From Streptomyces sp. PCS3-D2 (GTDB taxonomy: Bacteria > Actinomycetota > Actinomycetes > Streptomycetales > Streptomycetaceae): a stretch of DNA of 64,000 nucleotides. This document shows, one piece after another, positions 1 to 62,926 of the stretch. The notes beneath the pieces were generated by a model. That model worked only from the letters and a program-made list of their open reading frames with translations. It did not search any database and was not told the origin of the DNA. A program made the translations under genes and the position numbers. The stretch's first letter is position 1, and the number at the start of each line of letters is the position of its first letter. The DNA lies in assembly GCF_000612545.2 (NCBI RefSeq), contig NZ_CP097800.1:4092501-4156500 (forward strand), given 5' to 3'.

Positions 1-2568
<2,568 letters not shown>

Positions 2569-2645
2569 AGTTGCTCGCGTCCACTGTGTTAGTTCTGAAA
2601 TAACGAACGGCTGTGATTACATGCCAGCGTTCTAAATTTCATAGT

Positions 2646-2764
2646 GTTTCGGTGGTCATAGCGTTAGGGAAACGCCCGGTTACATTCCGAACCCGGAAGC
2701 TAAGCCTTTCAGCGCCGATGGTACTGCAGGGGGGACCCTGTGGGAGAGTAGGACGCCGCCGAAC
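2646..2764 (+). rRNA. 5S ribosomal RNA
   Basis: About 119 nt beginning GTTTCGGTGGTCATAGCG and ending in the complementary GCCGCCGAAC, with the conserved loop CCGAACCCGGAAGCTAAG. This is the normal streptomycete 5S rRNA, separated from the 23S 3' end by about 77 nt of spacer. It is the last gene of an rrn operon read left to right. Confidence 0.96.
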
Positions 2765-2777
2765 AATTTTTATGGGG

Positions 2778-2807
2778 AAGCCCCGTACCTTCTGGTACGG
2801 GGCTTTT
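2778..2807 (+). terminator. rrn operon terminator
   Basis: A 12-bp perfect stem (AAGCCCCGTACC / GGTACGGGGCTT) with a TTCT loop, starting 14 nt after the 5S gene and followed by Ts. This is a classical intrinsic terminator closing the rrn operon. Confidence 0.9.
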
Positions 2808-2946
2808 CCGCGTTCACCAACAGTGAGCCTTTTCGCAACCTCAGGTCGAGGCGTGGCGAGGGCCGGACGGAGCGCTGCTCGATGATGGCGCTGCCGAGCG
2901 GAATCACGGGTGAAGTCCGGAGGCCGGGTCGTTAGGCTCTCCGCCC

Positions 2947-3513
2947 ATGGACGAACAGCACGTGCTACGCCCGGTGCGGGCCGACGACTGGGAGAAGGTC
3001 AAGGAGCTGAGGATCGCCGGGCTCAAGGACCCGGTGGCACCCGTGGCCTTCCTGGAGACGGTGGAGCAGGCCGAGGGGCACCCCGACGAGTTCTGGCAGA
3101 GGCGGGCCGAGGGGGCGTCGCACGGGCGGGTGGCCCGGCAGTTCGTCGCGGAAGCCGCCGACGGGCGGTGGGTGGGTACGGTGTCCGTGCTCGTCGAGGA
3201 GGGCGGGACCGTCGACTTCTTCGACCAGTCCGTCGAACGGACGCAGGGACACATCGTGGGTGTGTTCGTACGGGCCGAGCAGCGGGGGACCGGACTCACC
3301 GAGGCCCTGTTCGCGGCCGCGCTGGAGTGGGCCTGGGGGCTGCAGGAGCCGGCGTTGGAACACGTACGGCTCTTCGTGCACGAGGACAACGCGCGGGCCG
3401 GCGCCTTCTACCGGAAGTACGGTTTCGAGGCGACGGGGACCGTGCTGCCCGTGCCCGGGAACCCGGCTGCCAAGGAACTGGAGTACGTGATCCGGCGGCC
3501 TGCCACTGCTTAG
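2947..3513 (+). CDS. GNAT family N-acetyltransferase
   Basis: A 188-aa soluble protein of the GCN5-related N-acetyltransferase fold, which moves an acetyl group from acetyl-CoA to an amine. The acetyl-CoA loop (motif A) is visible around residues 106-117 as VFVRAEQRGTGLTEAL, followed by the C-terminal NARAGAFYRKYGFEATG segment that forms the last strands. The ATG start puts the fold start (RPVRADDW) at residue 8. The stop overlaps by 4 nt the end of the convergent VirD4-like gene, so it is not part of that operon. The substrate cannot be read from the sequence. Confidence 0.85.
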   Translation: MDEQHVLRPVRADDWEKVKELRIAGLKDPVAPVAFLETVEQAEGHPDEFWQRRAEGASHGRVARQFVAEAADGRWVGTVSVLVEEGGTVDFFDQSVERTQGHIVGVFVRAEQRGTGLTEALFAAALEWAWGLQEPALEHVRLFVHEDNARAGAFYRKYGFEATGTVLPVPGNPAAKELEYVIRRPATA

Positions 3514-5087
3514 AACTCGGCTCCGGGCCAACGGGAGCGGGCCTGCTCGCGGCTGCGGCACAGGGCGAGGACGGGGAGCGTGTCGCCGGTCAGCAGCTCG
3601 GGGAGCCGGGGGATCGGGGCCACGGCCGCCACGTCGTCCAGCACGAGGGAGAGTGGTGGGTCGAGCCGACCGTGGGATGACCGTGCGGCCATGCGGCGGC
3701 CGTGCTCGACCACGTGAGAGGCGAGTGCGGTCAGCAACGGCATCGCACCCGGGTGGGTGCGAGGGTCCTCCAGAGCTTCACCCACCACATACAGGGTTCC
3801 CCCCTCGGCCAGGAACGAAGCCAGAGTGAGCGAATCCGTTCGGTTCTTGTTGCAGACCTCCCGGATGTGGATGGAGGTCAGGCAGGAGAGGGCACGAGCC
3901 GTCAGGTTCAGTGCGAGCTCCCGGCGTTCCGGGTGCGCGGTGAGGGCGCTCTCCAGTTCGCCGGCTGCGCCGGCCGCGGCCTGGGGGTGGGTGCGCAGGA
4001 TGCGTACGGGGTCCTGGGCGCTGGCGCCCTGGGCCCAGCGGTGGAGTTGTTTGAACGGCCGGTCGTCGAGGTCGGCCGCCTGGAGCCAGCTGCGCAGGAG
4101 CGTTTCGGCGGTGTCGGCCACGGCTGTGTCCATCCGGGCCTGTGGGCGTACGGGGGCCAGCAGGGCGGCCGCGCGGGCGGCGGCGGTGTCGCGGTCGGCG
4201 CATCCCTCGGCGGGATTCCAGTGCATGCGGGCCGGGGTGTCGCACAGGTGGGAGGGGTCGTAGAGGAGGACCGGGCCGAGTTTGGCGCGGGCGTCCTTGG
4301 TCTCGGCCCAGAGGGCGGGGGAGGAGGTCACGACCAGGGCGGCCCCCTCCGTTTCGCCGATGCGGGCTGCCGCGGCGCGCAGCCGGTCGTCTGGACCGCC
4401 GTAGGCGATCTTGTGCGTGCTGTCGTGCGGGGCAGGGGCAGGGGCAGGGGCGGTGGCGACGGGGGCGGGTGCCGGCCGGGGTGCGTAGCCGAAGCCGTAG
4501 CGGTAGGCCTCGTCGGTCGGGCCGGCGTGGGTCGCCGGCGGGCCCGGAGGGGCTGTTGCCGGGACCGGCGCCGCGGACGGTGCGGCGGCGGGACGGGAGG
4601 CGGCCGGCGTCGGCTGCGCGGGCGCGGGTGCCAGGAGGGTGACGGGCTCCGGCGCCTCCTTGGACTGCGGGGGCAGGGACGGCGGCTCGTGCGGTACGGG
4701 GGTCCGGGCGGCCTGCCGGGCCCGAGCGCGGCGCGCTTTGGTACGGGCCACCACACCGATCACGAACACCGTCAGGACGAAGAGGACCAGCAGCTGGCTG
4801 ACGAACAGGCCCCAGAACAGGCCCCAGCCGGACAGGGCCGCGGGGTCGGTGTCGGGCCAGGCCGCCGGGATGTCGTGAGGCTGCGCCGTCAGGGCGCGGA
4901 CGGCCGCCGGGGTCCGGGTGAAGGTGACGCTGTCGGGCCAGGAGCCCCTTGCGAAGAGGGCGGCCAGGCCGGTGGCCGTCCAGACGAGGACGGCCAGGCC
5001 GAGGAGGAAGGCCAGGAGGGCTACCAGCAGGCCGTCCGGGATCCCGCCGCCGCGGGTGGAGGGATCCGTACGTCGTGCGTCGTGCAT
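3510..5087 (-). CDS. VirD4/TraG-like membrane protein lacking a Walker A motif
   Basis: A 525-aa protein, last gene of the leftward type IV secretion-like operon, starting 2 nt after the VirB4-like stop. It has two N-terminal membrane segments (about residues 20-45 and 88-112), a long Ala/Pro-rich linker (about 125-230), then a C-terminal NTPase-like domain resembling the VirD4/TraG coupling-protein core. A Walker B-like stretch LSLVLDDVAAV and the following region are present. Where a P-loop would be expected there is only GETEGAALVVTSSPA, with no GxxGxGK[ST]. I infer a degenerate coupling-protein homologue that may be structural rather than an active ATPase. The VirD4 assignment rests on architecture and context. 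Confidence 0.65.
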   Translation of the reverse strand: MHDARRTDPSTRGGGIPDGLLVALLAFLLGLAVLVWTATGLAALFARGSWPDSVTFTRTPAAVRALTAQPHDIPAAWPDTDPAALSGWGLFWGLFVSQLLVLFVLTVFVIGVVARTKARRARARQAARTPVPHEPPSLPPQSKEAPEPVTLLAPAPAQPTPAASRPAAAPSAAPVPATAPPGPPATHAGPTDEAYRYGFGYAPRPAPAPVATAPAPAPAPHDSTHKIAYGGPDDRLRAAAARIGETEGAALVVTSSPALWAETKDARAKLGPVLLYDPSHLCDTPARMHWNPAEGCADRDTAAARAAALLAPVRPQARMDTAVADTAETLLRSWLQAADLDDRPFKQLHRWAQGASAQDPVRILRTHPQAAAGAAGELESALTAHPERRELALNLTARALSCLTSIHIREVCNKNRTDSLTLASFLAEGGTLYVVGEALEDPRTHPGAMPLLTALASHVVEHGRRMAARSSHGRLDPPLSLVLDDVAAVAPIPRLPELLTGDTLPVLALCRSREQARSRWPGAEF

Positions 5088-5089
5088 GG

Positions 5090-6511
5090 TCAGGCCACCG
5101 TGGTCGCGGATCCGGGGCTGCCGCTGCCGCGGCTGCGTTCGATGGACAGGGCGCGTTCCTCCGCTTCCAGCTCGGCGGCGAGGAGGTCCGCGGGGAGGCC
5201 GGCCGAGGCGGAGGACTCGGTCATGGCGCGGTCGGTGAAGACCAGGGGGCGTTCGGCTTCGGTGATCAGGTGTTTGACGACCTGGACGTTGCCGTTGACG
5301 TCCCAGACGGCGATGCCGGGCGTGAGGGTCGGGATGATCTCGACGGCCCAGCGGGGCAAGCCCAGTACGCGGCCCGTGGCGCGGGCCTCGTCGGCTTTCT
5401 GAGCGTAGATGGTGCGGGTGGAGGCCATCTTGAGGATGGCCGCGGCCTCACGGGCGGCGGCGCCGTCGACGACGTCGGAGAGGTGGTGGACGACGGCGAC
5501 GAAGGAGAGGCCGAGGCGGCGGCCGAACTTCAGGAGGCGCTGGAACAGCTGCGCGACGAAGGGGCTGTTGATGATGTGCCAGGCCTCCTCGACGAGGAAG
5601 ATGCGCTTCTTGCGGTCGGGCCGGATCCAGGTGTGCTCCAGCCACACGCCGACGATCGCCATGAGGATGGGCATGGCGATGGAGTTGCGGTCGATGTGGG
5701 AGAGGTCGAAGACGATCAGTGGCGCGTCGAGGTCGATACCGACGGTCGTGGGGCCGTCGAACATGCCGCGCAGGTCGCCGTCGACCAGGCGGTCGAGGAC
5801 GAGTGCCACGTCGAGGCCCCAGGCCCGGACATCGTCTATGTCGACGTTCATGGCGAGCGCGGACTCGGCCTCGGGGTGGCGCAGTTGTTCCACGATGTCG
5901 GTCAGGACGGGCTGGCGGTCCCGGATGCTGTCGACGACGTGGGCGTGGGCGACCTTGAGGGCGAAGCCGGCGCGTTCGTCGAGGCCGTGGCCCATGGCCA
6001 CTTCGATGATGGTGCGGAGCAGTGCGAGCTGGCCGGTCGTGGTGATGGCCGGGTCGAGGGGGTTGAGGCGGATCCCGGAGTCGTTGGCGGCGATCGGGTC
6101 CAGGCGGATGGGGGTTATTCCCAGCTGCTGGGCGATCAGGTTCCATTCGCCGACGCCGTCCTCGCCCTGGGCGTCGAGGACGACGACCTGCCGGTCCTTG
6201 AAGCGGAGCTGGCGCAGGACGTAGGTCTTCTCCAGGGCCGACTTGCCGTTGCCGGATTCGCCGAGGACCAGCCAGTGGGGGGCCGGGAGCTGCTGGCCGT
6301 ACAGCTGGAAGGGGTCGTAGATGTAGCCCTTGCCGCTGTAGACCTCGCGGCCGATGATGACGCCGGAGTCGCCGAGGCCGGGGGCCGCGGTGGGCAGGTA
6401 GACGGCTTGCGCCTGCCCGGTGGAGGTGCGTACGGGCAGGCGCGTGGTTTCGACTTTGCCGAAGAGGAAGCTGGTGAAGGCGTCCGTCAGCGCTGTCATG
6501 GGATCTCGCAT
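5090..6511 (-). CDS. VirB4/TraC-type ATPase of a T4SS-like system
   Basis: A 473-aa ATPase with a perfect P-loop GESGNGKS at residues 84-91 and a Walker B strand KKRIFLVEEAW near 301-311, followed by the arginine-containing helicase-like C-terminal region typical of VirB4/TraC/HerA proteins. It lacks the long N-terminal domain of full VirB4; that part seems to be supplied by the upstream SCO6880-type gene, 18 nt away. Predicted to power assembly or transport at the inner face of the membrane. The ATG used follows a GGAGGG Shine-Dalgarno; a second ATG four codons later is possible. Confidence 0.85.
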   Translation of the reverse strand: MRDPMTALTDAFTSFLFGKVETTRLPVRTSTGQAQAVYLPTAAPGLGDSGVIIGREVYSGKGYIYDPFQLYGQQLPAPHWLVLGESGNGKSALEKTYVLRQLRFKDRQVVVLDAQGEDGVGEWNLIAQQLGITPIRLDPIAANDSGIRLNPLDPAITTTGQLALLRTIIEVAMGHGLDERAGFALKVAHAHVVDSIRDRQPVLTDIVEQLRHPEAESALAMNVDIDDVRAWGLDVALVLDRLVDGDLRGMFDGPTTVGIDLDAPLIVFDLSHIDRNSIAMPILMAIVGVWLEHTWIRPDRKKRIFLVEEAWHIINSPFVAQLFQRLLKFGRRLGLSFVAVVHHLSDVVDGAAAREAAAILKMASTRTIYAQKADEARATGRVLGLPRWAVEIIPTLTPGIAVWDVNGNVQVVKHLITEAERPLVFTDRAMTESSASAGLPADLLAAELEAEERALSIERSRGSGSPGSATTVA

Positions 6512-6529
6512 GGGCGGCTTTCCCTCCAG

Positions 6530-8092
6530 CTAGCGTCGGATGCCGGTGGCGAACGGCAGGGTGTTGACGAAGGCGCGGTGGTGCTCGCGGTCGCACCACT
6601 CCAGCTTCAGGTAGGACTTGCCGGCCGAGGCGCGGATGGTGCGCTTGTCGCGGGCGAGGGCCTCCGGTGAACGCGAGGACACCGTGATGTACCCGACCAG
6701 GTTGACTCCGGCAGCGCCGCTGGCGAGATCTTCACCCCTCTGGTCGAGTCGACCGTGTGCGGCGATGTCGCGGGGGTCGACGGTGCGGTTCATCTTGGCG
6801 GCGCGGGAGGCGTCGGCCTCGTCGTTGGTCTTCTCGGTGAGCATGCGCTCGATGGCCACCTCGGTGGGTTCCAGGTCCATGGTGACGGCGACGGTGCGGA
6901 TGACGTCGGGGGTGTGGACGAGGAGCGGGGCGAGGAAGTTCACGCCGACGGGGGTCATGGGCCATTCCTTGACCCAGGCGGTGGCGTGGCACCAGGGGGC
7001 GCGGGTGGAGGACTCACGGGTCTTGGCCTGGAGGTAGGTGGGTTCCACCGCGTCGAGTTCGGCCGGCCAGGCGTTGCGCTTGGTCATGGCCTGGATGTGG
7101 TCGATGGGGTGGTCGGGGTCGTACATGGAGTGCACGAGGGAGGCGAGGCGGCCCTGGCCGAGGGGCTGGCGGACGCGGATGTCGGCCTCGGCGAGGCGGG
7201 CGCAGATGTCGGTGAGCTCGCGGGCCATGACGATAGCGAGGCCGGCGTCCCGGTCGAGCTTGCGGCCCTTGCGGGGGGTGGCGGCGCGGGCGATGGTGAC
7301 GGCTTCGGCAGCCAGGTCGCGGGTGTAGTGCATGCAGGCGACGAGGTAGGCGCGGTGCTGCTCGGAGGAGGTGGACACCATCGACTGGAGTTGGTCGTAG
7401 GAGTCGCGCAGCCAGACGGGGGCCTGGGTGTCGCCGCGCTGGGCGACGTCCTTGGCGTGGGCGTCGGGGTCGGCGGGCAGGGTGCGGGCGAGCATCTGGA
7501 GGCGGGTGACGAAGCCGTCGCCGTTGGCCACGTGCTTGAGGAGGGTGCCGAAGCGGTCGACGAGAGCTTCCTGGTCCTCGCTGTCGCGCAGGCCGACGCC
7601 GGGGCCCTCGATCTCGATGGCGGCGGTGACGGTGCGGCGGTCGGCGTGCAGGAGCACGGCGATCTCGTCGGGGCCGAAGGGGGCGGCGAGCCAGTTGATG
7701 CGGCCGATGCCGGGGGGCGGGCCGACCTCGACCTCACGGCCGTCGGCGGCGCGGACGCCGGCTTCCATGGCGCCGGATCGGTAGGTGGTGCCGCGGCGGA
7801 GGGTGCGTTTGTAGCTGCGGCTGATCTCGAACCAGCGGTAGAAGGTGCGGCCCTTGTACGGGACGTACACGGCGGCGAGCGCGAGCGCGGGGAAGCCGAC
7901 GAGGCTGACGATGCGCAGGGTGAGGTCGGGGACGAGCAGTCCGCTCATCATGCCGAAGAACGCCCCCGTGATGATGAGGGCGATCTCGCCGGTCTCGCGG
8001 TTCTTGCCGACGATCGCGTTCGGCCGGGCGCGGCCGATGAGATACGTGCGGCGGGGCGCGACCGGGTGCAGCTGGTGGGACTGGGTCGTCAA
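6530..8092 (-). CDS. SCO6880/PrgI-type membrane protein of the T4SS-like cluster
   Basis: A 520-aa protein with a pair of hydrophobic segments at about residues 38-75, after a short N-terminal tail containing TYLIGRARPNAIVGK, then a large soluble domain. This matches the actinobacterial family named after SCO6880, whose N-terminus resembles PrgI and whose body resembles the N-terminal half of VirB4/TraC. Its ATG overlaps the stop of the VirB6-like gene (ATGA), showing translational coupling. I infer that it and the next gene together replace a full-length VirB4. Confidence 0.75.
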   Translation of the reverse strand: MTTQSHQLHPVAPRRTYLIGRARPNAIVGKNRETGEIALIITGAFFGMMSGLLVPDLTLRIVSLVGFPALALAAVYVPYKGRTFYRWFEISRSYKRTLRRGTTYRSGAMEAGVRAADGREVEVGPPPGIGRINWLAAPFGPDEIAVLLHADRRTVTAAIEIEGPGVGLRDSEDQEALVDRFGTLLKHVANGDGFVTRLQMLARTLPADPDAHAKDVAQRGDTQAPVWLRDSYDQLQSMVSTSSEQHRAYLVACMHYTRDLAAEAVTIARAATPRKGRKLDRDAGLAIVMARELTDICARLAEADIRVRQPLGQGRLASLVHSMYDPDHPIDHIQAMTKRNAWPAELDAVEPTYLQAKTRESSTRAPWCHATAWVKEWPMTPVGVNFLAPLLVHTPDVIRTVAVTMDLEPTEVAIERMLTEKTNDEADASRAAKMNRTVDPRDIAAHGRLDQRGEDLASGAAGVNLVGYITVSSRSPEALARDKRTIRASAGKSYLKLEWCDREHHRAFVNTLPFATGIRR

Positions 8093-9420
8093 CGCCCGTC
8101 ACCTCCTGTGTTCCTCGTGCTCGAGCTCGTGCGGGGCGGGGGTGCGGCGGAGGGGACAGATCCGCCGCCGCCCCCGCCGCCGGTGGTGGGGCGGCTGCTG
8201 TGGGCGGCCACGCCTCCGGAGAGGGGGTTGGCGGGGCGGGGCGCGCTGCCGCCGCCTTCGCCTCCGCGGTCGCCTCCGCGGTGTGCGCCGCGGCTGCTGT
8301 GGGTCTTGATGCCCTGGGAGACGAGGGAGGCCGGGGAGCTGATGACGGCGGCGGCCTGGGCGCCGTCGGTGGCCTTGCTGCGGTTCGAGCGGGCGGAGGC
8401 GATCTCGTCGCCGAAGCCGGGGACGAAGCGGTAGATCATCGCGGAGGCGAAGATCGCCAGCAGGATGATGGAGAGGCCGGTGACGACGGCGGAGAAGGCG
8501 TTCGGGCCCTGTTCCCCGGTGAGGGCGCCGGCGAGGCCGAGGACGATGACGATGACCGGCTTCACGAGGATGACGGCGATCATGATGCCGGCCCAGCGGC
8601 GGACGTGGCCCCAGAGGTTGCGGTCGACGAGTCCCGAGTAGACGACGACGCCGAGGAGGGCGCCGACGTAGAGGAGGGCTGCGCGGATGAAGAGTTCGAG
8701 GAAGAGGATGCCGGCGGCGAGGACGGTGACGAGGGAGACGACGATCAGCATGATCGGGCCGCCGCCGATGTCGTTGCCCTTCTTGAGGGCCTCGGAGAAG
8801 GAGCCGAAGAAGACGTCGGTCTGGCCGCCGGTTGCGGAGGCGATGACCTCGGTGACGCCGTCGGTGGCGGAGACGACGGTGTAGAGGATCAGGGGGGTGA
8901 AGGCGGAGGCCAGGACGGTGAGCCAGAGGAAGCCGATGGCCTCGGAGAGGGCGGTGGTGAGGGGGACGCCGCGGACGGCACGCTTGGCGACGGCGAAGAG
9001 CCACAGGACGAGCGTGAGGATGGTGGAGGCGGCGAAGACGACGGCGTACTGCTTGAGGAAGGCGGCGTTGGTGAAGTCGACGTTGGCGCTGCCGTTGACC
9101 GCTTCGCTGAGTTTGGTGACGATCCAGGCGGCGGCGTCGGCGCAGCCCTTGGCGAGGGAGGCGAGGGGGTTGAGGGCGTCGGCCGGGTCACTGGGCCCGA
9201 GGCCCGTACGGGGGGCTCCGCCTTCGCCGCGCTCGCAGTACTCCCTGGCAGGCCCGGCGATCAGCGAGCACGGGTCCTTGCTCCCGGTCGGCGAGGGAGC
9301 CGGAGTCTGGGTCGGGTCCGGCGCGGCCATCGCCTGTGCCGCGAGGAGCACGACCGCGGTCTGGACGGACGCGGTGATCGCACCGATCTTTCGGAGCGAG
9401 GGTCGCTTGCTACCGGGCAT
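8089..9420 (-). CDS. VirB6/TrbL-like polytopic membrane protein
   Basis: About 443 aa. A signal-like N-terminus (MPGSKRPSLRKIG then a hydrophobic stretch to about residue 30) leads to an extracytoplasmic segment with several Cys, then seven or more strongly hydrophobic helices between about 100 and 350, and a Gly/Ser/Pro-rich cytoplasmic tail. This is the layout of VirB6/TrbL channel components. The start chosen at 9420 overlaps the upstream gene by 11 nt; an in-frame upstream extension to 9507 would lie wholly inside that gene and is unlikely. The glycine/serine-rich tail is low-complexity and may vary between strains. Confidence 0.75.
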   Translation of the reverse strand: MPGSKRPSLRKIGAITASVQTAVVLLAAQAMAAPDPTQTPAPSPTGSKDPCSLIAGPAREYCERGEGGAPRTGLGPSDPADALNPLASLAKGCADAAAWIVTKLSEAVNGSANVDFTNAAFLKQYAVVFAASTILTLVLWLFAVAKRAVRGVPLTTALSEAIGFLWLTVLASAFTPLILYTVVSATDGVTEVIASATGGQTDVFFGSFSEALKKGNDIGGGPIMLIVVSLVTVLAAGILFLELFIRAALLYVGALLGVVVYSGLVDRNLWGHVRRWAGIMIAVILVKPVIVIVLGLAGALTGEQGPNAFSAVVTGLSIILLAIFASAMIYRFVPGFGDEIASARSNRSKATDGAQAAAVISSPASLVSQGIKTHSSRGAHRGGDRGGEGGGSAPRPANPLSGGVAAHSSRPTTGGGGGGGSVPSAAPPPRTSSSTRNTGGDGR

Positions 9421-10243
9421 AGGTGAACCCTCCGAATCCGGTGACCGCGCTGCCGATTTCGTCAGAGGTGGAGACGGGGACGTCGCCGGTGACCGGCGTG
9501 GGGCCATCCTTCTGCGAGGTTTCGACCACTTTCCAGTCCGAGCCGTTCCACTTGAGAGCCATCGAGATCGTGAACCAGCTGCTGGTGACGGGACGCGTGG
9601 ACTTGTCGCCGGTCAGGCCGAACATGCCGATGCACCACACGTCGACTGACGCGGCTCCGGAGGAGAAGGTCTTGACCGTGGCGCCGGCTGGGACGGTGCG
9701 GTTGACGAACGTGGAACCGGTGGGTGCCAAGCCGTCCTTGGTGAGACCGATCTGGGCGAGCAGGCCCGCGGAGTAGTCGGCATCGAAGGCGGCCTGCAGT
9801 CTCGTGCGGCTGCTCTCTTCCGCGATGGCATCCACGATCGCATGGCGCCGCGCCGGATTGAACATTCCGTCGGAGCCCAGGGCGACGGCGTAGTTGGCGG
9901 CCGCCGACTGGGCGCCCTGTTCGTCGTGGGCGAAGCCCTTCGGGATGCCCGCGGTCTTGCCGGTGACCGGGTCCGTGCCCGTGGCGGCGGTGGAGGCGGC
10001 GGCCGGGGCGTCGTCGGCGGGGCGGTCGTCGGCGGTGTCGGGGGTCTGGTTGGCGAAGGCGATGGCGGCGACGAGGAGAACCACCACGCCGACCACGGTG
10101 ACCAGGCTGCGGGGGGCGCGGGAGGTGCGGCGGGCGGGGCCGTAGGGGTCGGCGGGGGCTTCGGGAAGGCGGGTGCGGGTCTGGCCCGTGCCGCCGATCT
10201 CGCCGTGGCCGGCCGCGCCGCCGTACCGGTCGTCGTTGCTCAT
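9410..10243 (-). CDS. VirB8-like membrane-anchored protein
   Basis: 277 aa. A Pro/Arg-rich cytoplasmic N-terminus (about 45 residues) precedes one membrane helix (LVTVVGVVVLLVAAIAFA), a disordered linker, then a globular domain from about residue 105 ending FGGFTYAR. The topology and a terminal domain of about 170 residues with the sequence WFTISMALKWNGSDWKVVE suggest the NTF2-like VirB8/conjugation-protein fold. It overlaps the VirB6-like gene by 11 nt and is the second gene of the operon. The VirB8 label is inference; no catalytic residues are expected in this family. Confidence 0.65.
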   Translation of the reverse strand: MSNDDRYGGAAGHGEIGGTGQTRTRLPEAPADPYGPARRTSRAPRSLVTVVGVVVLLVAAIAFANQTPDTADDRPADDAPAAASTAATGTDPVTGKTAGIPKGFAHDEQGAQSAAANYAVALGSDGMFNPARRHAIVDAIAEESSRTRLQAAFDADYSAGLLAQIGLTKDGLAPTGSTFVNRTVPAGATVKTFSSGAASVDVWCIGMFGLTGDKSTRPVTSSWFTISMALKWNGSDWKVVETSQKDGPTPVTGDVPVSTSDEIGSAVTGFGGFTYAR

Positions 10244-10655: not shown

Positions 10656-11226
10656 GTAACTCACCGCCCCTGTATGGGTAGTTCCGGATGCCCGCTGCCC
10701 GATGGCAGGGGTCACGCACTATCTTCGCTGATGAAACAGCCGTCGTCGTCGACTTGTCGGCTCTCTTTACCCGATCTCGCGGCCCGCGACCGGGTTCCGC
10801 GCTCTGACCTGGGTCGGGCTGCCGTCCGTACGCAAGAACGTGCGGTCACTCTGTGTATCACGGGGGGTGACGCCGGGCAATGATTGTCCTCTCGGCATAC
10901 GGGGGGCGGGGTCAGGGGCCGCCGTTCGGAGCAGCGGGGCCGCGTGTCGTTGGGCCGACCCGCTGACATGTGTCCGACATTCCGTCAGCCATCCGGCCGG
11001 ACCCCGGGTTGCGGGCGAAGCTCCACGACGTCAGGTGGTACGACGCGGGGAGCGGCGGATGGGTTCCGTGTGCGGGGCGGTGCGGAGGTGGTCGCCCCTG
11101 CCGGGGCCGTCGTCGAGACCTCGTGTCCGCCGTCGCCGAACCGCACACCCGGGCGGTGCCGCGGGCACTCGTCCCCCGAACCGCCGGGGCCGCGGCGTTG
11201 TCAGTGGGCTGCGGCAGGCTGGAGGG
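10656..11226. other. divergent intergenic region upstream of the T4SS-like operon
   Basis: About 570 nt between the leftward secretion-like operon and the rightward hydrolase gene. Reading frames here have poor composition and no recognisable domain. A weak candidate -10 element for the operon (GATAGT on the minus strand, 10718-10723) is the only promoter-like hint I see. Confidence 0.4.
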
Positions 11227-56143: not shown

Positions 56144-56978
56144 ACAGGGGAAGGCGGACGGCAGGCTGCGGATCGCGGAAGGCGGGCGGCAGACGGTGAA
56201 CCGAAAGACCGGGGTGGCGGCGTCACTTGTGGCATCCCTGCGCGCGGCCGGCTGTGTCTTCGCCGAGGAGGAGGCGGAGTTGCTGGCCGGCGCCGCCCGC
56301 GACGAGGCGCACCTGGCGGAGCTGCTGGCCCGTCGGGTGGGCGGCGAACCGCTCGAACACGTCGTGGGCTGGGCGGAGTTCTGCGGGCTGCGCATGGCCG
56401 TGGGAGCGGGCGCCTTCGTGCCGCGCAGGCGTACCGAGTTCCTGGTGGAGGAGGCGGTGGCGCTGACCCGGCCGGGCGCGGTGGTGCTGGACCTGTGCTG
56501 CGGGGTGGGTGCCCTGGGTGCGGCGGTGGCGGCGCGGTCACCGGGCGGGGTGGAGCTGCACGTCGCCGACATCGATCCGGCGGCACTGGCGTACGCGCGG
56601 CGCAACGTGGCCCCGTACGGCGGCCGGGTGTGGGAGGGCGACCTGTACGCCGCACTCCCGTCGGAGCTGCGCGGCCGGGTGGACGTGCTCGTGGTCAACG
56701 CCCCGTACGTGCCCACGCGGGAGATCGGGCTGATGCCGTCGGAGGCGCGCGACCACGAGCCGCTGGTCTCGCTGGACGGCGGGGCCGACGGGCTGGACGT
56801 CCACCGCCGGGTGGCGGCGGGGGCGCCGGCCTGGCTGGCCCCGGGAGGCCGTCTGCTGATCGAGACGAGTGCCCGGCAGGCCCCGTCGACGGCGTCGGCG
56901 CTGACCTCGGCCGGCCTGGCGGTCCGGGCGGTCACCTCGGATGAGCTGCCCGCGACGGTGGTGGTCGGCACGGCCTGA
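56133..56978 (+). CDS. PrmC/HemK-like methyltransferase of uncertain substrate
   Basis: 281 aa. Class I SAM-dependent fold with [16 protein letters not shown] (motif I), VADIDPAAL, and NAPYVPTRE (189-192) where PrmC has NPPY. The N-terminal PrmC-type helical domain is present ([24 protein letters not shown]). The NAPY variant and short length match a PrmC-related subfamily (TIGR03704) rather than the release-factor glutamine methyltransferase itself. Starts inside the upstream gene with an 11-nt overlap. Confidence 0.8.
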
Positions 56979-57184
56979 GCGGGGACCGGGGGAGGGTCGG
57001 CGCAGCGGGGTGGGCGGAGGTCCCGACCGGCGCGCCCCGGGCCGGTGTCTGTGCGTACCGGCTCGTACCGGCTCGTACCGGTGCCCGTTGCTCCCGGCGG
57101 CCGGTGCCGCCGTGCCGATCGGGGTGGTGGTGTACTCCGCGGGGACGGTGGCCACCGGGCTCCGGGCCCGGCCGACCGAACCCG

Positions 57185-58012
57185 TCAGGCCTTCGCGTAC
57201 GGGCCCTGCGTCACCATGGTGTTCTGCATCGCCGTCAGCCTGCGGACGAAGAGGACGGCGAGCACGCCGGCGATCGTGGTGCCCAGGTCCGCGGCGATCC
57301 CGAGCTGTCCCGCTACGAGCAGCTCGTCCACGGTGTCGGCGTCCATGTAGATCCGGCTGAAGACGCGGCCCGCGACTGCGGTGAGGGCCCAGAGCACCCA
57401 CCAGGACGTCAGCAGTGCGGTGGGCGCCGTGCGGTCGGAGCCGTCGGGTCCGCGCTGGGTGCTGGCCCGCCAGGTCTGCCGGGCGACCAGATAGGGCAGG
57501 ACCAGGTGGGCCACGGGGACGAACCAGCCGCCGATGGCCCAGCCGGGGCCCAGGGTGAAGGCGTCGGGTCGGAAGAGGGCGCCGTTGGTCCGCACACGGT
57601 GGAACCAGATGATGAAGACGACGCAGGTGGGCGGCAGTGCGAGCATCTGGAGCAGCCCGGCGAGGAGGGTGAGCCCGCCGGACAGGCTGAGTTCGAGGTC
57701 GTCGAAGTGGGTGTCCCCCGAGAATCCCTGCAGCCATGCCTGCTCGTACACGCCGGTGCCGGCGGAGAAGAGGTGGACCGCGGCCGAGGCGCCGAGCAGC
57801 CAGGTCAGTGCTGTCGCGAGGCCGTTCGGCGAACGCAGTGCGCCCCGAGGCGCCGGCGGGGCGGCGGGGTACGGCCCGCCGGGGTAGGGGTGCGGCTGCG
57901 GGGGGACCGGGTACGGGGCCGGGCCGGGCTGAGGGTACGGCTGCGCCTGCGCGTGCCCCGGCTGCTGCTGGGGCTGCGGCGGCGGCGGTGAGCCGGGCGC
58001 GCTGAAGGACAT
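57185..58012 (-). CDS. DUF4328 membrane protein
   Basis: 275 aa. A Pro/Gln/Gly/Tyr-rich cytoplasmic tail of about 60 residues is followed by five to six hydrophobic helices with FIIWFHRVRTNGALF and SWWVLWALTAVAGR, features of DUF4328. Function unknown. Last core gene before the accessory island; its promoter is between 58013 and 58140. Confidence 0.8.
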   Translation of the reverse strand: MSFSAPGSPPPPQPQQQPGHAQAQPYPQPGPAPYPVPPQPHPYPGGPYPAAPPAPRGALRSPNGLATALTWLLGASAAVHLFSAGTGVYEQAWLQGFSGDTHFDDLELSLSGGLTLLAGLLQMLALPPTCVVFIIWFHRVRTNGALFRPDAFTLGPGWAIGGWFVPVAHLVLPYLVARQTWRASTQRGPDGSDRTAPTALLTSWWVLWALTAVAGRVFSRIYMDADTVDELLVAGQLGIAADLGTTIAGVLAVLFVRRLTAMQNTMVTQGPYAKA

Positions 58013-58144
58013 GACGGTGGACCCCCCACGGGAACGGATGACATGCGGACGGCCCCTGCCGGGCGGGCGGGGGCCGTCGCGAAGATAGGCCGGTTCTGTG
58101 CTCGGAGTCCAGGCTATTTTTCCTGTTCAGAGGTCCCGTCTCGG

Positions 58145-58191
58145 TTGAGGTGAACCATGACGAGACGTTGATCGGCAGTGGTTCATCTTGA
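58145..58191. repeat. imperfect inverted repeat at the island's left margin
   Basis: TTGAGGTGAACCA (58145-58157) against TGGTTCATCTTGA (58179-58191), 11 of 13 paired, with direct-repeat words GAGACGTTGATCGG and GAGACGCTGTTCGG nearby. Looks like the remnant end of a mobile element; no gene or attachment site is certain. Confidence 0.45.
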
Positions 58192-58220
58192 GTGAGACGC
58201 TGTTCGGTGCGGCGCTTCAC

Positions 58221-58589
58221 TCAACCTGAGGTCGGTGAGTCCTGTGCTGCTTCACGCTCGGCAGCGAACTCGTCGAGGAGCTCGAACAGGACCTTGATCG
58301 CCTGCTGTTCGTCCTCAGGCGGAAGATTCCACACGTCGTCCCAGCCGTTCGGGAGGGCGATGTGGAGGATTTGGCCCGGCCAGGCGTGGTTGCAGTCGCG
58401 CCCGCGACGGGCGACGAGCCAGTCGTGCCAGCCGGTGAGTCCGGGCCCACCGTGCCGGAGAGCATGCTGGTCATAACCGGTCAGGAACGCGGTCAGCATG
58501 TGGAAAGAGGTCTTGCCGACGAACATGCCGGGACGTTGGCCGACGCTGGCGAAGTACTCGCGTTCAGTCATCTCGGAGAGGGGCTGCAC
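58221..58589 (-). CDS. hypothetical protein, accessory island
   Basis: 122 aa, soluble, with MTEREYFASVGQRPGMFVGKT, GWHDWLVARRGR and an acidic C-terminus (PPEDEQQAIKVLFELLDEF). I do not recognise the family. GTG at 58589 has GAGGAAGG upstream; the ATG at 58571 has none. It has the look of a small immunity-like or orphan accessory protein, but nothing in the sequence proves that. Confidence 0.6.
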   Translation of the reverse strand: MQPLSEMTEREYFASVGQRPGMFVGKTSFHMLTAFLTGYDQHALRHGGPGLTGWHDWLVARRGRDCNHAWPGQILHIALPNGWDDVWNLPPEDEQQAIKVLFELLDEFAAEREAAQDSPTSG

Positions 58590-58711
58590 GCGTCCGTACC
58601 TTCCTCGTCAATGGCGCTGTCGTCCAGGTCTGGACGAAGCCTGCTGCGGGCCGCCTCCGGACGTTCGGCGTAGTCCGCCGCATCGCCGACGAGACGGCTG
58701 AGGTCCGTCAT
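58568..58711 (-). CDS. 47-aa possible small gene upstream of the 122-aa gene
   Basis: ATG start with GGAG 9 nt upstream, product MTDLSRLVGDAADYAERPEA... and a polar tail. It overlaps the start of the 122-aa gene, so it could be a translationally coupled small gene. Composition is ordinary, no family, moderate doubt. Confidence 0.35.
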   Translation of the reverse strand: MTDLSRLVGDAADYAERPEAARSRLRPDLDDSAIDEEGTDACSPSPR

Positions 58712-58891
58712 CTGCACCCGCTCCAGTCAGTCCGACAGAACCAGCGCCTCATCCGAGGTGAGCTTGATGATGATTTACGGATCCTCCGTTCCTCGAACAT
58801 ACTTCGTCGAGCCTGCACTGTCAGAGGTGCCTGGCACAGTGCCGCTGTGAACGTTGATTCCCTTCTGGAAGCTCATCGAGGAGTACCGGCG

Positions 58892-59218
58892 TCAGGCGCA
58901 GAGCCCGGAGTTCAGGTGCGTGCCCGTGTCGAATGAGAGTCGGAGGGCGCCGGACTTGAAGGCGATTGCGGAGCGGATCTGTGCTCCGAACGGGGTGAGC
59001 GCCGCTGCAACGTCCTGCGTTTCCGGATGTAGAACCGATGGCGGGTTGGCTCGGACGGAGCCGTGCGAGAGGCTGGCTGGCGCCTCCAAGGTGACCTCCC
59101 AGGCGGAGCCGAGGACCAGTGTGAGCCGGAAGTCCACCACGATCCTGGTGACGGGCAAGTCGCGGAGGTTCAAGATCCATCGGTCTTCGTGTTCAACGGG
59201 ACCTTGCTCAGTAGTCAT
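58892..59218 (-). CDS. DUF6188-like protein, C-terminally short
   Basis: 108 aa. The sequence LPVTRIVVDFRLTLVLGSAW, then LTPFGAQIRSAIAFKSGALR and FDTGTHLNS, matches the DUF6188 pattern (small beta-rich proteins found as accessory orphans in actinobacteria). Typical members continue after FDTGTHL with a Y-E-A-W segment that is missing here, so the 3' end may be truncated or frameshifted. Follows the DUF6461 gene by 70 nt in the same direction. Confidence 0.6.
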   Translation of the reverse strand: MTTEQGPVEHEDRWILNLRDLPVTRIVVDFRLTLVLGSAWEVTLEAPASLSHGSVRANPPSVLHPETQDVAAALTPFGAQIRSAIAFKSGALRLSFDTGTHLNSGLCA

Positions 59219-59287
59219 CCATGCACCCTGGCTGATGTGAGATGCGATAACCACGCGTTTTGGTACGCCAGGGGCCGTGTCTGACCT

Positions 59288-59902
59288 TCAGCGGAAGTCG
59301 GCGGTGCCGCAGATGAAGGTGGTGTCCTGGAGGAGGTCCGGGGTGACTCGGATGCCGGTGATGTGCTCGGCGAGTGCGAAGGCGGCCGGCACGGCCAGGT
59401 CGTCGTCCGTTTTGGTGGGCTCTTCGGGGAAGGTGAAGCCGAGGTGGCGGATGACGTCGAGGAGGTCGTTGGCGCGGGTGCCGGTGCGGTAGGCGGCATC
59501 GCGGATTTCGAACTGGAGCTGGGGTTCGGTGTCCTCGGCCCAGAGGAACGAGCCGTCGTTGTTGGCGTTCGCGTTGTCGTAGTGGGAGATCCAGCGGGTG
59601 CCCGCTGATGCGGGCAGGGCCTTCTTCTCGTTCACTCCGTGCCAGCCGTTGGGCTCGATCATGAGGGTCCACGGGCCGAGCGTCGTCATTCCGAAGTACG
59701 TCCGCGTGGTGCTGAAGTCCCAGAGCCCGTATGCGGTGTCGACGAGTGCGTTGATCCCGGTGACCTCGGGTTCGGATTTGCCGCCCAGTCTGCTCAGCAG
59801 TTCGTTCGGCGGCACGTTGTGCACGAGGGTGAGGCAATAGGACTCGGCGAGGTCCGGGAAGTCTTCCTCGAACCACAGGTAGTCAGCAGCAGTCGTAGCC
59901 AT
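59288..59902 (-). CDS. DUF6461-like protein
   Basis: 204 aa, soluble, acidic. The opening DYLWFEEDFPDLAESYCLTL and WTLMIEPNGWHG near residue 78, plus a final helix-loop (DLLQDTTFICGTADF), match the DUF6461 family, commonly found next to toxin or orphan clusters in actinobacteria. Function unknown; a role as immunity-like protein is inference from neighbourhood. Confidence 0.65.
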   Translation of the reverse strand: MATTAADYLWFEEDFPDLAESYCLTLVHNVPPNELLSRLGGKSEPEVTGINALVDTAYGLWDFSTTRTYFGMTTLGPWTLMIEPNGWHGVNEKKALPASAGTRWISHYDNANANNDGSFLWAEDTEPQLQFEIRDAAYRTGTRANDLLDVIRHLGFTFPEEPTKTDDDLAVPAAFALAEHITGIRVTPDLLQDTTFICGTADFR

Positions 59903-59923
59903 GTGGGAGATCCTTCACGACGG

Positions 59924-60148
59924 CTATGACATTGAGGGTGCCCGGGTCCCGGGAGGGCGTCGCCTCAGGCCGCGGCGGACCCGCCGCATCACCGTGCCGG
60001 CCATTGAGGCGATCTTGTAGGGGTGGGGGTCGGAGTGGAGCAGGTCATCGGGCGGCAGGCGTTGGAAGAACTCGTCCAGGAACTGGTTCACATCTGCGGT
60101 GTGCATGCTGTCGCTGAGGTGAGCTTGTTCCGCTTTGGCGGACACCAT
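59924..60148 (-). CDS. 74-aa hypothetical protein next to the IS3 remnant
   Basis: Product MVSAKAEQAHLSDSMHTADV... with an amphipathic middle (NQFLDEFFQRLPPDDL) and a basic tail (RRVRRGLRRRPPGTR). The ATG lies 12 nt from the end of the IS3 transposase wreck, so the upstream region was probably altered by that insertion. No family recognised. Confidence 0.5.
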   Translation of the reverse strand: MVSAKAEQAHLSDSMHTADVNQFLDEFFQRLPPDDLLHSDPHPYKIASMAGTVMRRVRRGLRRRPPGTRAPSMS

Positions 60149-60159
60149 CGGTGTGGTGG

Positions 60160-60508
60160 TCAGGCCGCGAGGGCGGCCTCGTAGTCGGCCGGACTGCGGT
60201 AGCCGAGGCTGCTGTGCAGCCGCTGCACGTTGTACCAGCTTTCGATCCGGTGGAGAAGAAGGACTCGGCCAGCGCGTTGTCCCAGCACGGCCCGGTGCGG
60301 CCGACCGAGAGTCGGACTCTGAACTCCGCAGCCAGGCAGGCGCATTCACGGCTCGTGTACTGACAGCCGCGATCCGAGTGGAAGATCACCGGACCGGCCG
60401 GGCGGCGAGTGCGGAACGCGGCCCTCAGCGCGTCGGTGACCAGTTCGGTTCGCAAGTGGTCGGCGGTAGCTCAGCCCACGATGCGGCGGGAGGCGGTATC
60501 GGCCGACT
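60160..60508 (-). pseudogene. IS3-family transposase remnant
   Basis: Decayed integrase-core (rve) sequence. ASRRIVG, then a TGA where W is expected, DHLRTELVTDALRAAFRTR, FHSDRGCQYTSRECA, DNALAESFFST, then a jump to the terminal NVQRLHSSLGYRSPADYEAA in another frame. So it has a nonsense change, an internal deletion and a frameshift. Only the C-terminal third of the transposase is left; no terminal inverted repeats were found. Confidence 0.85.
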
Positions 60509-60546
60509 GCTGACCTCCTCGCTTGCTGAGCGATATGGGCCGCTGA

Positions 60547-61305
60547 ATGGGAAGTTCACCCCGCGCAGTAGCGCCGCGAGGATGGTCAACGGCAATGCGT
60601 GGGTGCCGGACCACGATCGCGCCGCGCACCGTCGGGCGCCTCCAGCCGGCCTGCGGCGCGCAGCTCGCGGAGCCAGCCGGGGCTGGTCCGGGGAGCGCCC
60701 CCGACCCGCAGACGCTGGAGCATCTCCTCGGCCTTCAGCGCCGACTCCTGAGACTTCTCGACCCCGCCGGCCCGGCCGTGACCCCGAGCGTCGGCTGGCT
60801 AATCCGCGCCGCTGACTACTTCGCCGACCTGAGAGCGCTGCTCGGCCTTGTATTCCCCTCCTGGCCTGCGGCTCGCTTCTTCGCCGCGACCCCGGCGCTC
60901 GCGGAGGCCCTTGACCGGGAAGCCGAAGAGCGCCTTGCCCGAGCAGCGGCCCTTCGTGACCGGCCCGGGAAGAAGCACAGCTCGCGTCCTTTCACCGACC
61001 CACCGCTGGACCCGTTTCTCATGGGCGCGGTGCTCGGAATCGCCGAGCGGCTGCTCGACGCCTCGGACGAGGAACAGGCGCGGGAGCTCATGCTGCCGCT
61101 CATCCATCAAGCCGGCCGTGTCGATCAGGCGTTGTCGATCTACCTCCGACGCGAGGCGTGGGTCTCGTTCCCTGTGCGGATCGTCAGCATGAACCGCTCC
61201 AAGAGCATGATGGCCATGGGTGCCATCATCGCCCGCGGGCCGATCCCCAAGGGCGGTGGCAGCGGAGCGCGTCCGGAGGGGTATCGCCGACGTGCGCCCC
61301 GGTGA
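60547..61305 (+). pseudogene. TniQ-like fragment, last gene before a transposon end
   Basis: 252 aa open frame. Its middle (LEHLLGLQRRLLRLLDPAGP, YFADLRALLGLVFPSWPAAR, LAEALDREAEERLARAAALR) resembles the C-terminal region of actinobacterial TniQ-family transposition proteins, as far as I can recall. The N-terminal part with Zn-binding Cys is missing, and the left portion adjoins the IS3 wreck, which suggests truncation. It ends 16 nt before the GTGACAAC boxes of a transposon end. TniQ assignment is plausible, not proven. Confidence 0.5.
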
Positions 61306-61321
61306 CAGTTGTCCTGCTCAA

Positions 61322-61346
61322 GTGACAACCATCGTGCTCAGTCACA
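61322..61346. repeat. right end of a TniQ-type transposon
   Basis: Twenty-five bases beginning GTGACAACC and ending CAGTCACA. Read on the minus strand this starts TGTGACTG and ends GTTGTCAC, matching 20 of 25 bases of the terminal repeats of the adjacent element. It is the outer end of the element carrying the tniQ-like fragment. The left end was not found. Confidence 0.7.
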
Positions 61347-61355
61347 ACAGTCGGG

Positions 61356-62419
61356 TGTGACTGCTCGCGATAGTTGTCACCGGTGTTGCCCGTCGACCAG
61401 GGACCTCTCCTCGGGATCGCAGCGCTTTCTGTCACTGAATTCACGCGGTGGTTGTCACTTCCGGGCTGATCTCAATCGTGTTGTCACCAGCTCCGGAGAA
61501 CGTGCCCAGTCCGAAAGTGGCGCCCGGCGGAACCTGCGGGTTCCAGACAGCGCGCTCAGGCCAGAGGGCTTGTTGCCATTTGACCTGGCGCGATGATGGA
61601 CGCCACGGTGCCGCTCTGGGTGCGTCCGATCCAGACGGGGGACCATCCTTCAGGGACGCCGAAGGCGATGAGGTCAGCGTTTAGAGCTTCATCGGTGCTC
61701 TTCTCAAACCAGCCGTCGCACAGGTCTTCGGTGGCCCGGTCCGAACCGGATCCTCCGTATGACGACACTTCCCGCCGGTAGCGGTGGAATGGTGCGGTCA
61801 GCGCTTCCCACGCCTCGACGTCGGCGATGGCTCCCGTGGCCTCGCTGTCGGAATGGAACCCGGCGGCAGCGATCTCGGCGTCCCCGATAGCATCGTTCAC
61901 CCCGATGCCGATCTCCCAGACTGCCACCGGGTCATCGCCGACGCGCAGTCGGGTTGCGGCACACTCCCGTCCGTCGAAGTAGTCGCCGCCGTGCTCGTAC
62001 GGGGCCTCCGTCCAGGCCGCCTCCACGCGGTACGTGCCGGGCGGAATCCGCGCGACGATCTCACGCCCCGCCTCGTCGGACCACGGCGAGTCCACGATCA
62101 GCCGACCGCTGGGAACCCGGATCGTGGTCACCTCCTCCACCTCGACCACGGTGATGAAGGTGAGCGGGTCGTCAGCACGCACGCCGAGACGTGCCCCCGG
62201 CACAAAGACCGCGTCCAGAAACTCGCTGACCTCCCGCCCGGCCTCCAGCCGCGGATTTTTCACCCATGCCATCCCACACACCCCTCATCCACGAGCCAAC
62301 TGCTCAGTCAGAAGATAGGGGGTGCCCATGACAGTGGCCCCGACAGATCCAGGCGGTGCCCGTATGTGAGCGTGGTGACAACCGTCGCTGCGAAGTGACA
62401 ACTATCGCGTGCAGTCACA
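61356..62419. mobile_element. 1,064-bp non-autonomous transposon with 25-bp TIRs and 7-bp TSD
   Basis: Left terminal repeat 61356-61380 starts TGTGACTGC and ends GTTGTCAC; right terminal repeat 62395-62419 is its complement with one mismatch (24/25). The element is flanked on both sides by AGTCGGG (61349-61355 and 62420-62426), a perfect 7-bp target-site duplication. Extra GTTGTCAC boxes at 61451 and 61480 (left) and GTGACAAC at 62375 (right) form subterminal sites. Termini are 5'-TGT...ACA-3' as in Tn7/Tn5053/Mu-type elements. It encodes no transposase, only a DUF4241 gene on the minus strand. Confidence 0.85.
61556..62272 (-). CDS. DUF4241-like protein, cargo of the small transposon
   Basis: About 238 aa, acidic. 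EIVARIPPGTYRVEAAWTEA followed by TRLRVGDDPVAVWEIGIGVN matches the DUF4241 pattern (PpGtYpV...aaarlvv.d.pv..We.al). The C-terminal half (GFHSDSEATGAIADVEAWEA, GWSPVWIGRTQSGTVASII) completes the family profile. The ATG at 62272 is used; GTG at 62281 is possible. It is the only gene between the transposon ends, so it is mobile cargo. A role as immunity or antitoxin-like orphan is a guess. Confidence 0.7.
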   Translation of the reverse strand: MAWVKNPRLEAGREVSEFLDAVFVPGARLGVRADDPLTFITVVEVEEVTTIRVPSGRLIVDSPWSDEAGREIVARIPPGTYRVEAAWTEAPYEHGGDYFDGRECAATRLRVGDDPVAVWEIGIGVNDAIGDAEIAAAGFHSDSEATGAIADVEAWEALTAPFHRYRREVSSYGGSGSDRATEDLCDGWFEKSTDEALNADLIAFGVPEGWSPVWIGRTQSGTVASIIAPGQMATSPLA

Positions 62420-62447
62420 AGTCGGGCCGGGAGGCGGGTGGGAGATG

Positions 62448-62467
62448 TTGCAAGCATCTGCTTGCAA
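62448..62467. promoter_or_regulatory. 20-bp palindrome upstream of the XRE regulator gene
   Basis: Perfect inverted repeat TTGCAAGCA-TC-TGCTTGCAA, followed by a further TTAGCAAG half-site, 31 nt before the regulator's ATG. Likely its autoregulatory operator. It starts 21 nt after the transposon's right target duplication, so insertion stopped just short of the regulator's promoter. Confidence 0.7.
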
Positions 62468-62497
62468 AAGTTAGCAAGGTCGGGCAGGATCTGGAGC

Positions 62498-62926
62498 ATG
62501 GCATCGCTCAACGTCGGACATCTCGGCGAATACCTTCGTGAGCAACGGCGGCAGGCGCAGCTCTCGCTGCGGCAGCTGGCCGATGCGGCGGGGGTGTCGA
62601 ATCCGTACCTGAGCCAGATCGAGCGCGGGCTGCGCAAGCCGAGCGCGGACATCCTGCAGCAGCTGGCCAAGGCGCTGCGGATCTCCGCGGAGACGCTGTA
62701 CGTGCAGGCCGGGATCCTGGACGAGCGGGACCGCGACGAGGTGGAGACGCGAGCCGCCATACTCGCCGACCCGTCCATCAACGAGCGGCAGAAGCAGGTG
62801 CTGCTCCAGATCTACGAGTCGTTCCGCAAGGAGAACGCACTCGACGCGCCCGCCGTTCCCGGCGATCCCGCCGTTCCCGACGGGCCTGGCACACCGTCCG
62901 ACGAGATGCCGTCGAAGACCGACTGA
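62498..62926 (+). CDS. XRE-family regulator of the Rv0474 type
   Basis: 142 aa. Helix-turn-helix at residues 8-65 (LGEYLREQRRQAQLSLRQLA, then SNPYLSQIERGLRKPSADIL), an EEDRDEVETRAAI-type helical middle, and a Pro/Asp-rich tail. ATG at 62498 with GGAG upstream. Gene order regulator, HbhA-like, DUF2516 matches mycobacterial Rv0474-Rv0475(hbhA)-Rv0476, so I read it as the orthologous regulator. Confidence 0.85.
   Translation: MASLNVGHLGEYLREQRRQAQLSLRQLADAAGVSNPYLSQIERGLRKPSADILQQLAKALRISAETLYVQAGILDERDRDEVETRAAILADPSINERQKQVLLQIYESFRKENALDAPAVPGDPAVPDGPGTPSDEMPSKTD

Follow-up and report, generated by a model that had tools for sequence, protein, structure and literature searches.

Element B, a 1064-bp stretch at 61356–62419 of the window (the whole 64-kb stretch of DNA that was analysed), is probably (at a probability of roughly 0.78) a non-autonomous member of an actinobacterial family of Tn7-like transposons, mobilised in trans and docked at a palindrome preceding a conserved XRE-type regulator gene. 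The layout of its boxes, the docking distance, the orientation, the empty and stacked sites in relatives, the other small elements and the lack of a TnsB match are all apparent at the level of sequence; from these we infer mobilisation in trans, a TniQ protein that reads the site, and the order of insertion. The features of B and of its docking site are as follows.

61356–62419, no strand: element B, probable non-autonomous Tn7-like element, 1064 bp (from its ends, end pattern and box layout)
61356–61380, + strand: left terminal inverted repeat of B, TGTGAC...GTTGTCAC (end comparison, end pattern)
62395–62419, − strand: right terminal inverted repeat of B (end comparison, end pattern)
61375–61487, + strand: left-end box array of B, TGTCA at positions 20, 75, 98 and 127 (window 61375, 61430, 61453 and 61482)
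62375–62402, − strand: right-end boxes of B, TGTCA at 20 and 40 from the right terminus; a third, at 87, occurs only in B
61349–61355, no strand: left flank copy AGTCGGG, 7 bp (5 bp in relatives)
62420–62426, no strand: right flank copy AGTCGGG
61556–62281, − strand: cargo gene, DUF4241 protein, 241 aa (PF14025, E = 1.7e-13)
62448–62475, + strand: proposed attachment site, palindrome TTGCAAGC-N4-GCTTGCAA followed by AA and GTTAGC, 28 bp from the right end of B
62498–62926, + strand: conserved XRE-type regulator gene adjoining the attachment site

The original prediction had described a small transposon with intact ends at this position, and its main points were confirmed: the inverted ends are 25 bp long and complementary at 24 of 25 positions (96%), the list of open reading frames (ORFs) shows none of transposase size inside, and the content is a single intact ORF, the DUF4241 gene. 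Nor do the ORFs and Pfam matches within B include TnsB, TnsC or TniQ genes of its own. The end pattern, at up to three mismatches, occurs three times in the 64-kb window and not once in 100 shuffles, and GTTGTCAC is present in six copies in 64 kb, all within 61322–62402 (mean of 1.34 in 100 shuffles, none as high as six). The left end of B itself scores 32/32, and the best score in the window outside A (an older element, described below) and B is 18. The predicted subterminal boxes are real, and a fourth left box (TCTGTCAC, with TGTCA at position 75) had been overlooked. B has the TGT...ACA ends and asymmetric box arrays found in the Tn7-like family.

The perfect AGTCGGG that had been reported on both flanks is indeed present, although related elements have a 5-bp duplication. 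B fails a strict 5-bp test (TCGGG adjoins it on the left and AGTCG on the right), and only the 7-bp reading fits. The flanks may represent either a 7-bp stagger or two extra bases to the right of B before a 5-bp duplication, matched by chance; a 994-bp element (L170) is a similar case with one extra base, by our own reading of its flanks. Inverted ends and the absence of a transposase are also traits of miniature inverted-repeat elements (MITEs), but B carries a gene and exceeds 500 bp. Its movement was presumably in trans, in the manner of MITEs.

The assignment to the Tn7-like family comes from comparison with two full-size elements. The first, L048 (genome G082), is 14,121 bp long with the duplication CCTCC, and encodes a TnsA-like protein (NF033179, 5.1e-37), a TnsB-like ORF (weak rve match), TniB/AAA and two TniQ proteins, together with type I restriction-modification genes as cargo. 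The second, L049 (G371), is 10,001 bp long with the duplication TCCCG, and has TnsA-like, TniB and TnsB (weak rve match) ORFs and one TniQ by Pfam, its other TniQ being called from 84% identity to TniQ1 of L048. Left-end TGTCA boxes at 20, 75, 98 and 127 are common to B, L048, L049, L177 and L050 (20, 75 and 98 in L051), and right-end boxes at 20 and 40 are shared by B, A, L048, L049, L177, L051 and L166 (20 only in L050). The end architecture of B is thus that of elements encoding TnsA, TnsB, TnsC and TniQ, and since its box layout matches that of the tns-bearing 10- and 14-kb elements, B is best read as a non-autonomous Tn7-like element. The likening of its termini to TnsB/TniA-type binding ends in the original prediction was accordingly well placed, the same layout bounding full-size elements with TnsA-like, TnsB-like, TniB and TniQ genes. 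The left end of B is identical to that of L050 at 119 of 140 positions and to that of L048 at 80 of 140, which places B in a sub-type of its own. The end pattern of A and B, at up to two mismatches, was found in 26 of 393 genomes of the genus (three genomes for a backwards control pattern). An intact autonomous element with ends of the B type was not found; among left ends adjoining tns genes, the nearest is 72% identical and belongs to an element in G064 whose TnsB-like stretch has two stops.

The genome of B (G000) gave no match to the TnsB of L048, a query that matched 10 of 14 genomes (including its own) down to about 31% identity; nor was any obtained for G193, G071 or G083, genomes in which small elements also occur. 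A search with the TniQ family returned no match in G000, nor in any of 14 control genomes, and is hence uninformative.

The proposed attachment site accompanies the regulator gene closely. A relaxed form of the palindrome (two substitutions at most) precedes the XRE gene at 81 of 81 loci, comprising the window and the best 80 of 564 relatives of the XRE protein (the named XRE loci), and a tighter form without substitutions is present at 74 of these 80 best relatives. The palindrome may be the operator of the regulator itself, in which case TniQ would read the binding site of a regulator. The sequence TCACA near the palindrome was detected in 22 of 393 genomes of the genus, always at 27–31 bp though 21–31 bp was allowed (27 bp, n = 2; 28 bp, n = 6; 29 bp, n = 11; 30 bp, n = 2; 31 bp, n = 1), with the reservation that the upper limit of 31 bp may lose larger distances. 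The backwards-pattern control returned zero, yet reversal also destroys the palindrome. As the pattern allowed no mismatch, the occupied sites of G064, G080, G085 and G209 stand outside the 22. At six of the 81 XRE loci (the window and the best 80 of 564) there was a match to the right end with up to three mismatches in 14 columns, compared with 0.4 matches per shuffled set; the offsets were 28 bp (window and L101), 27 bp (L127), 26 bp (L076 and L130) and 16 bp (L073). For TCACA in 75 of the named XRE loci, five occurrences fell at 27–28 bp and four at 16–17 bp. The second small peak, 16–17 bp from the palindrome (for example L073 and L100), lies about one helical turn closer. The right end points towards the XRE gene in all six att-site elements of tellable end type (the window, L048, L049, L051, the distal element of L160, and L166). 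B is accordingly inserted at a fixed distance and in a fixed orientation from a conserved site, as are members of the Tn7-like family.

Tn7-type genes were present in the fetched stretch of seven of the 22 docked ends (L202, L203, L204, L212, L048, L049 and L055) and were not seen in that of the other 15, some of which are on short contigs. The TnsB proteins of L202, L204 and L212 are only 30–32% identical to that of L048, so that the XRE site seems to serve more than one Tn7-like group. A possible second end type, TGTCCGTTCC / TGTCCTGTCGCA (17–19 of 25 positions matching), occurs with 5-bp duplications in L202, L110 and L212; in L202 and L212 it accompanies TnsB proteins about 32% identical to that of L048.

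To the left of B lies a decayed region with the following features.

61301–61346, − strand: right end of the older element A (terminal repeat 61322–61346, boxes at 20 and 40)
60489–61305, + strand: remnant of the second tniQ of A, corresponding to residues 112–147 and 226–458 of L048 TniQ2 (69% and 85% identity)
60045–60455, − strand: transposase fragment (rve integrase core, Pfam) in a decayed part of the island
56979–62419, no strand: whole island, from the stop of the methyltransferase-like gene to the right end of B, about 5.4 kb; left junction approximate

The original prediction, sound as to B itself, had overlooked both the docking site and the right end of this second element. That end is the third occurrence of the end pattern and lies 9 bp to the left of B. 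The segment 60604–61346 is 86% identical to the right-hand 743 bp of the full-size element in G082 (L048) and 90% identical to that in G371 (L049), and from this A appears to be a decayed full-size Tn7-like element older than B. No left end of A scored above background in 56900–60600 (best 16/32). The transposase fragment is IS3-type by our own reading. The island also contains a 122-aa ORF without a Pfam match (58221–58589, − strand) that recurs at 86–93% identity in L085, L124, L133 and L141, i.e., in four of the 80 named XRE loci (best 80 of 564 relatives), and may be recurrent cargo of the site. It includes DUF6188 and DUF6461 genes as well (58892–59902); a DUF6188 relative is immediately upstream of the docked end of L206, and in L176 the 966-bp element has a DUF6461 relative at a distance of about 2 kb.

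The genes flanking the island on the left are ones that we take, from sequence motifs, to be methyltransferase-like (HemK) and GNAT. A methyltransferase-like left neighbour lies within reach at eight of the 80 named XRE loci (best 80 of 564 relatives). In three aligned cases (L065, L083 and L106) it is 87–95 bp from the XRE start, which provides the empty site in relatives by which the original prediction was to be checked. The spacing is 608–1732 bp at the other five loci and about 5.5 kb in the window. An occupied site with two stacked elements is found in G064 (L160), where the element proximal to the XRE gene is 1788 bp long (GGTCG) and the distal one 6903 bp (GTCGG); the distal element includes a TnsA-like gene and a TnsB-like stretch containing stops. 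The order is the same in the window, with B next to the XRE gene and A behind it. Arithmetical removal of B and one flank copy places the end of A 30 bp from the palindrome, inside the 27–31 bp range. The target copies of the stacked elements in L160 (292–8988) are offset by 1 bp, which raises the question of how target immunity was escaped.

Other small elements have similar ends. Those listed below are end pairs with an exact 5-bp duplication in which no transposase gene was noticed.

1183 bp, L177 (same region as L011 and L063): one gene, no Pfam match
690 bp, L172: exact 5-bp duplication
966 bp, L176: exact 5-bp duplication
698 bp, L008: exact 5-bp duplication, ends less clear
2765 bp, L051, at the XRE site: TetR-type and SDR genes, and a putative second SDR-like ORF
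1788 bp, L160 (G064), at the XRE site: TetR-type and SDR genes
310 bp and 245 bp: no long ORF noted

The 245-bp form is present twice in L054, as copies 2.1 kb apart that are identical at 245 of 245 positions and have different flanks, with a 5-bp duplication at only one of the two. Its boxes are the variants TGTCA, TGGCA and TGACA, at 20, 75, 98 and 128 on the left and at 20 and 40 on the right. The end-pair scan covered 2,255 kb of loci and returned 20 pairs, compared with two in one simple shuffle. By our own reading, 12 of the 20 pairs are of the TGTGAC type and the other eight represent another end type or chance, so that the background in real sequence may exceed that of the shuffle; many of the loci, moreover, had been chosen for holding such ends. 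Two further elements belong to the left-end sub-type of B. L050, its nearest sister, is 1274 bp long and carries a DUF4265 gene, perhaps with an additional 137-aa ORF; it lacks a 5-bp duplication, and its 3.3 kb include no att palindrome. The element of G386 is about 1.1 kb long with a decayed left terminus, and its 302-aa ORF looks like S1 repeats. Since L050 and G386 share the left-end sub-type of B while carrying other genes, related end modules evidently carry different genes, and elements with such ends but different cargo, expected under the original prediction, do exist.

In the mechanism proposed, the single cargo gene of B (DUF4241) would sit between two end modules, one of about 147 bp on the left and one of about 60 bp on the right. 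An autonomous relative would provide TnsA-like, TnsB, TnsC and TniQ proteins in trans; these would bind the box arrays and insert B at a fixed distance (28 bp) from the palindrome before the conserved XRE gene, its right end facing the regulator. One TniQ would most likely read this palindrome, by analogy with the reading of attTn7 by TnsD, and the helper would act elsewhere or have acted earlier. Each newcomer would be placed closest to the regulator, which would explain the position of B between the older A and the XRE gene.

The chief alternative is that B arrived as a full-size element with DUF4241 as cargo and lost its tns genes by internal deletion, without any movement of mini-elements. 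The same ends and flanks would be expected in that case, the adjoining A is just such a decayed full-size element, and full-size elements do carry varied cargo, such as the restriction-modification genes of L048. Against this, B retains both of its end modules intact, different genes are carried by elements of about its size whose left ends are related (L050 and G386), the 245-bp form is found as an identical pair with differing flanks, and away from the XRE site several small elements are bounded by clean 5-bp duplications. Movement of small forms is suggested by the existence of others, in particular the 245-bp form with its two copies, and internal deletion is therefore considered unlikely.

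Two other explanations carry far less weight. A larger mobile unit, bounded by the right end of B and the lost left end of A, would have moved A and B as one; the two elements adjoin and their ends are alike, but the left end of B is itself complete, AGTCGGG stands on both sides of B, and no left end of A was detected in 56900–60600. Such a unit is highly improbable. TGT...ACA ends, box arrays and 5-bp duplications are also typical of the Tn5053/Tn402 or Mu-type group, so that the ends of B would fit an element of that group too. The TnsA-like endonuclease gene of the full-size relatives, their two TniQ genes, and the fixed docking site and orientation speak for the Tn7-like assignment, and leave a Tn5053/Tn402- or Mu-type origin as the least probable of the readings, to be given hardly any credence.

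Tn7 has asymmetric end arrays, generates a 5-bp duplication and inserts in one orientation, and its TnsD protein binds at the end of the coding region of glmS. The full-size relatives of B resemble it in having asymmetric end arrays, TnsA/B/C-type genes with TniQ/TnsD, and 5-bp duplications, and in inserting in one orientation beside a conserved sequence of a chromosomal gene. They differ in that the proposed site is a palindrome before the XRE gene rather than the end of a coding region as for TnsD at glmS, and B differs further in lacking transposition genes. Tn7 with TnsD-attTn7 (PMC2918618) is thus one of the closest known systems. An Actinobacteria-dominated clade of Tn7-like transposons, none experimentally characterised, is described in the accessible portion of Benler et al. 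2021 (PMC8649781). The L048 family resembles this clade in host group and gene content; the terms 'Streptomyces', 'XRE', 'nonautonomous' and 'non-autonomous' are absent from the main text of that paper as accessible. The presence of two TniQ-type genes, and a tnsA that is either separate or fused to tnsB, recall the dual tniQ-tnsD Tn7 transposons of Faure et al. 2023 (PMC10293859), but in the part of that article available, Streptomyces appears once, as a reagent name, and mini-elements do not appear. With prokaryotic MITEs, as covered in the available part of PMC10969869, B shares terminal inverted repeats and presumed movement in trans, which sometimes extends to the moving of genes; it departs from them in its fixed docking site. 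The same portion of PMC10969869 gives IS elements as the main source of MITEs and mentions Tn7 twice, neither time for Tn7-like MITEs. Neither an XRE docking site nor Tn7-like mini-elements of this kind were found by title or opening of abstract in the literature searched, most subscription journals lying outside it.

A wider and distinctly tentative reading is that Streptomyces might possess a cassette-like gene exchange based on Tn7-type machinery, in which swappable small cargo, often one gene, lies between left modules of about 147 bp and right modules of about 60 bp, and is moved in trans and docked in series at the palindrome. If so, the conserved regulator gene would be the growing edge of an island, and Tn7-type machinery would feed tiny passengers, with one gene or none, that transposase-first surveys miss. 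The present analysis names a specific Tn7-like docking site in Streptomyces, a genus in which a natural insertion site with controlled orientation would be of practical use. That a TniQ protein reads the palindrome before a regulator gene is a testable claim.

Turning to the cargo, the DUF4241 family is present in 55 of 246 genomes of the genus. The second match in G000 is partial (contig 2, 56321–56596); this 100-kb contig also bears an end sequence with three mismatches at 10757–10781. The spread of DUF4241 itself by such elements, envisaged in the original prediction, was not supported: an end pair with an adjacent 5-bp duplication was found at none of 34 other DUF4241 loci (L228–L261), a test that B itself would also fail. 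These loci comprise four from plasmids and 30 of 75 genome match rows, the genome stretches being only about 3.5 kb each. DUF4241 as a typical cargo of these elements is likewise not supported. Matches to the whole of B in the plasmid collection are confined to DUF4241 parts (two records); with the left end of B, and again with that of L048, a single weak match was obtained there. A single-sequence AlphaFold model of the protein was useless (mean pLDDT 37.6), and the one match among solved structures is weak (6i86, an uncharacterised protein, E = 0.0017). PADLOC and NCBIfam gave no match, no relative was found on viral contigs, and the annotated surroundings of four of 11 plasmid relatives contain no clear partner gene. 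The sources reached record no function for DUF4241, a word absent from the literature searched. L231 has two DUF4241 genes beside YfbM-family and DUF6042 genes, and a candidate immunity-type role was considered from these neighbours. Outside the 34 loci, a DUF4241 gene in L057 (32% identity) lies between such ends without a duplication and adjoins a tns-bearing element. The latter is an 8.3-kb element with a fused TnsA-TnsB gene, adjoining the end pair around that DUF4241 gene (L057 of G046, 44–10230).
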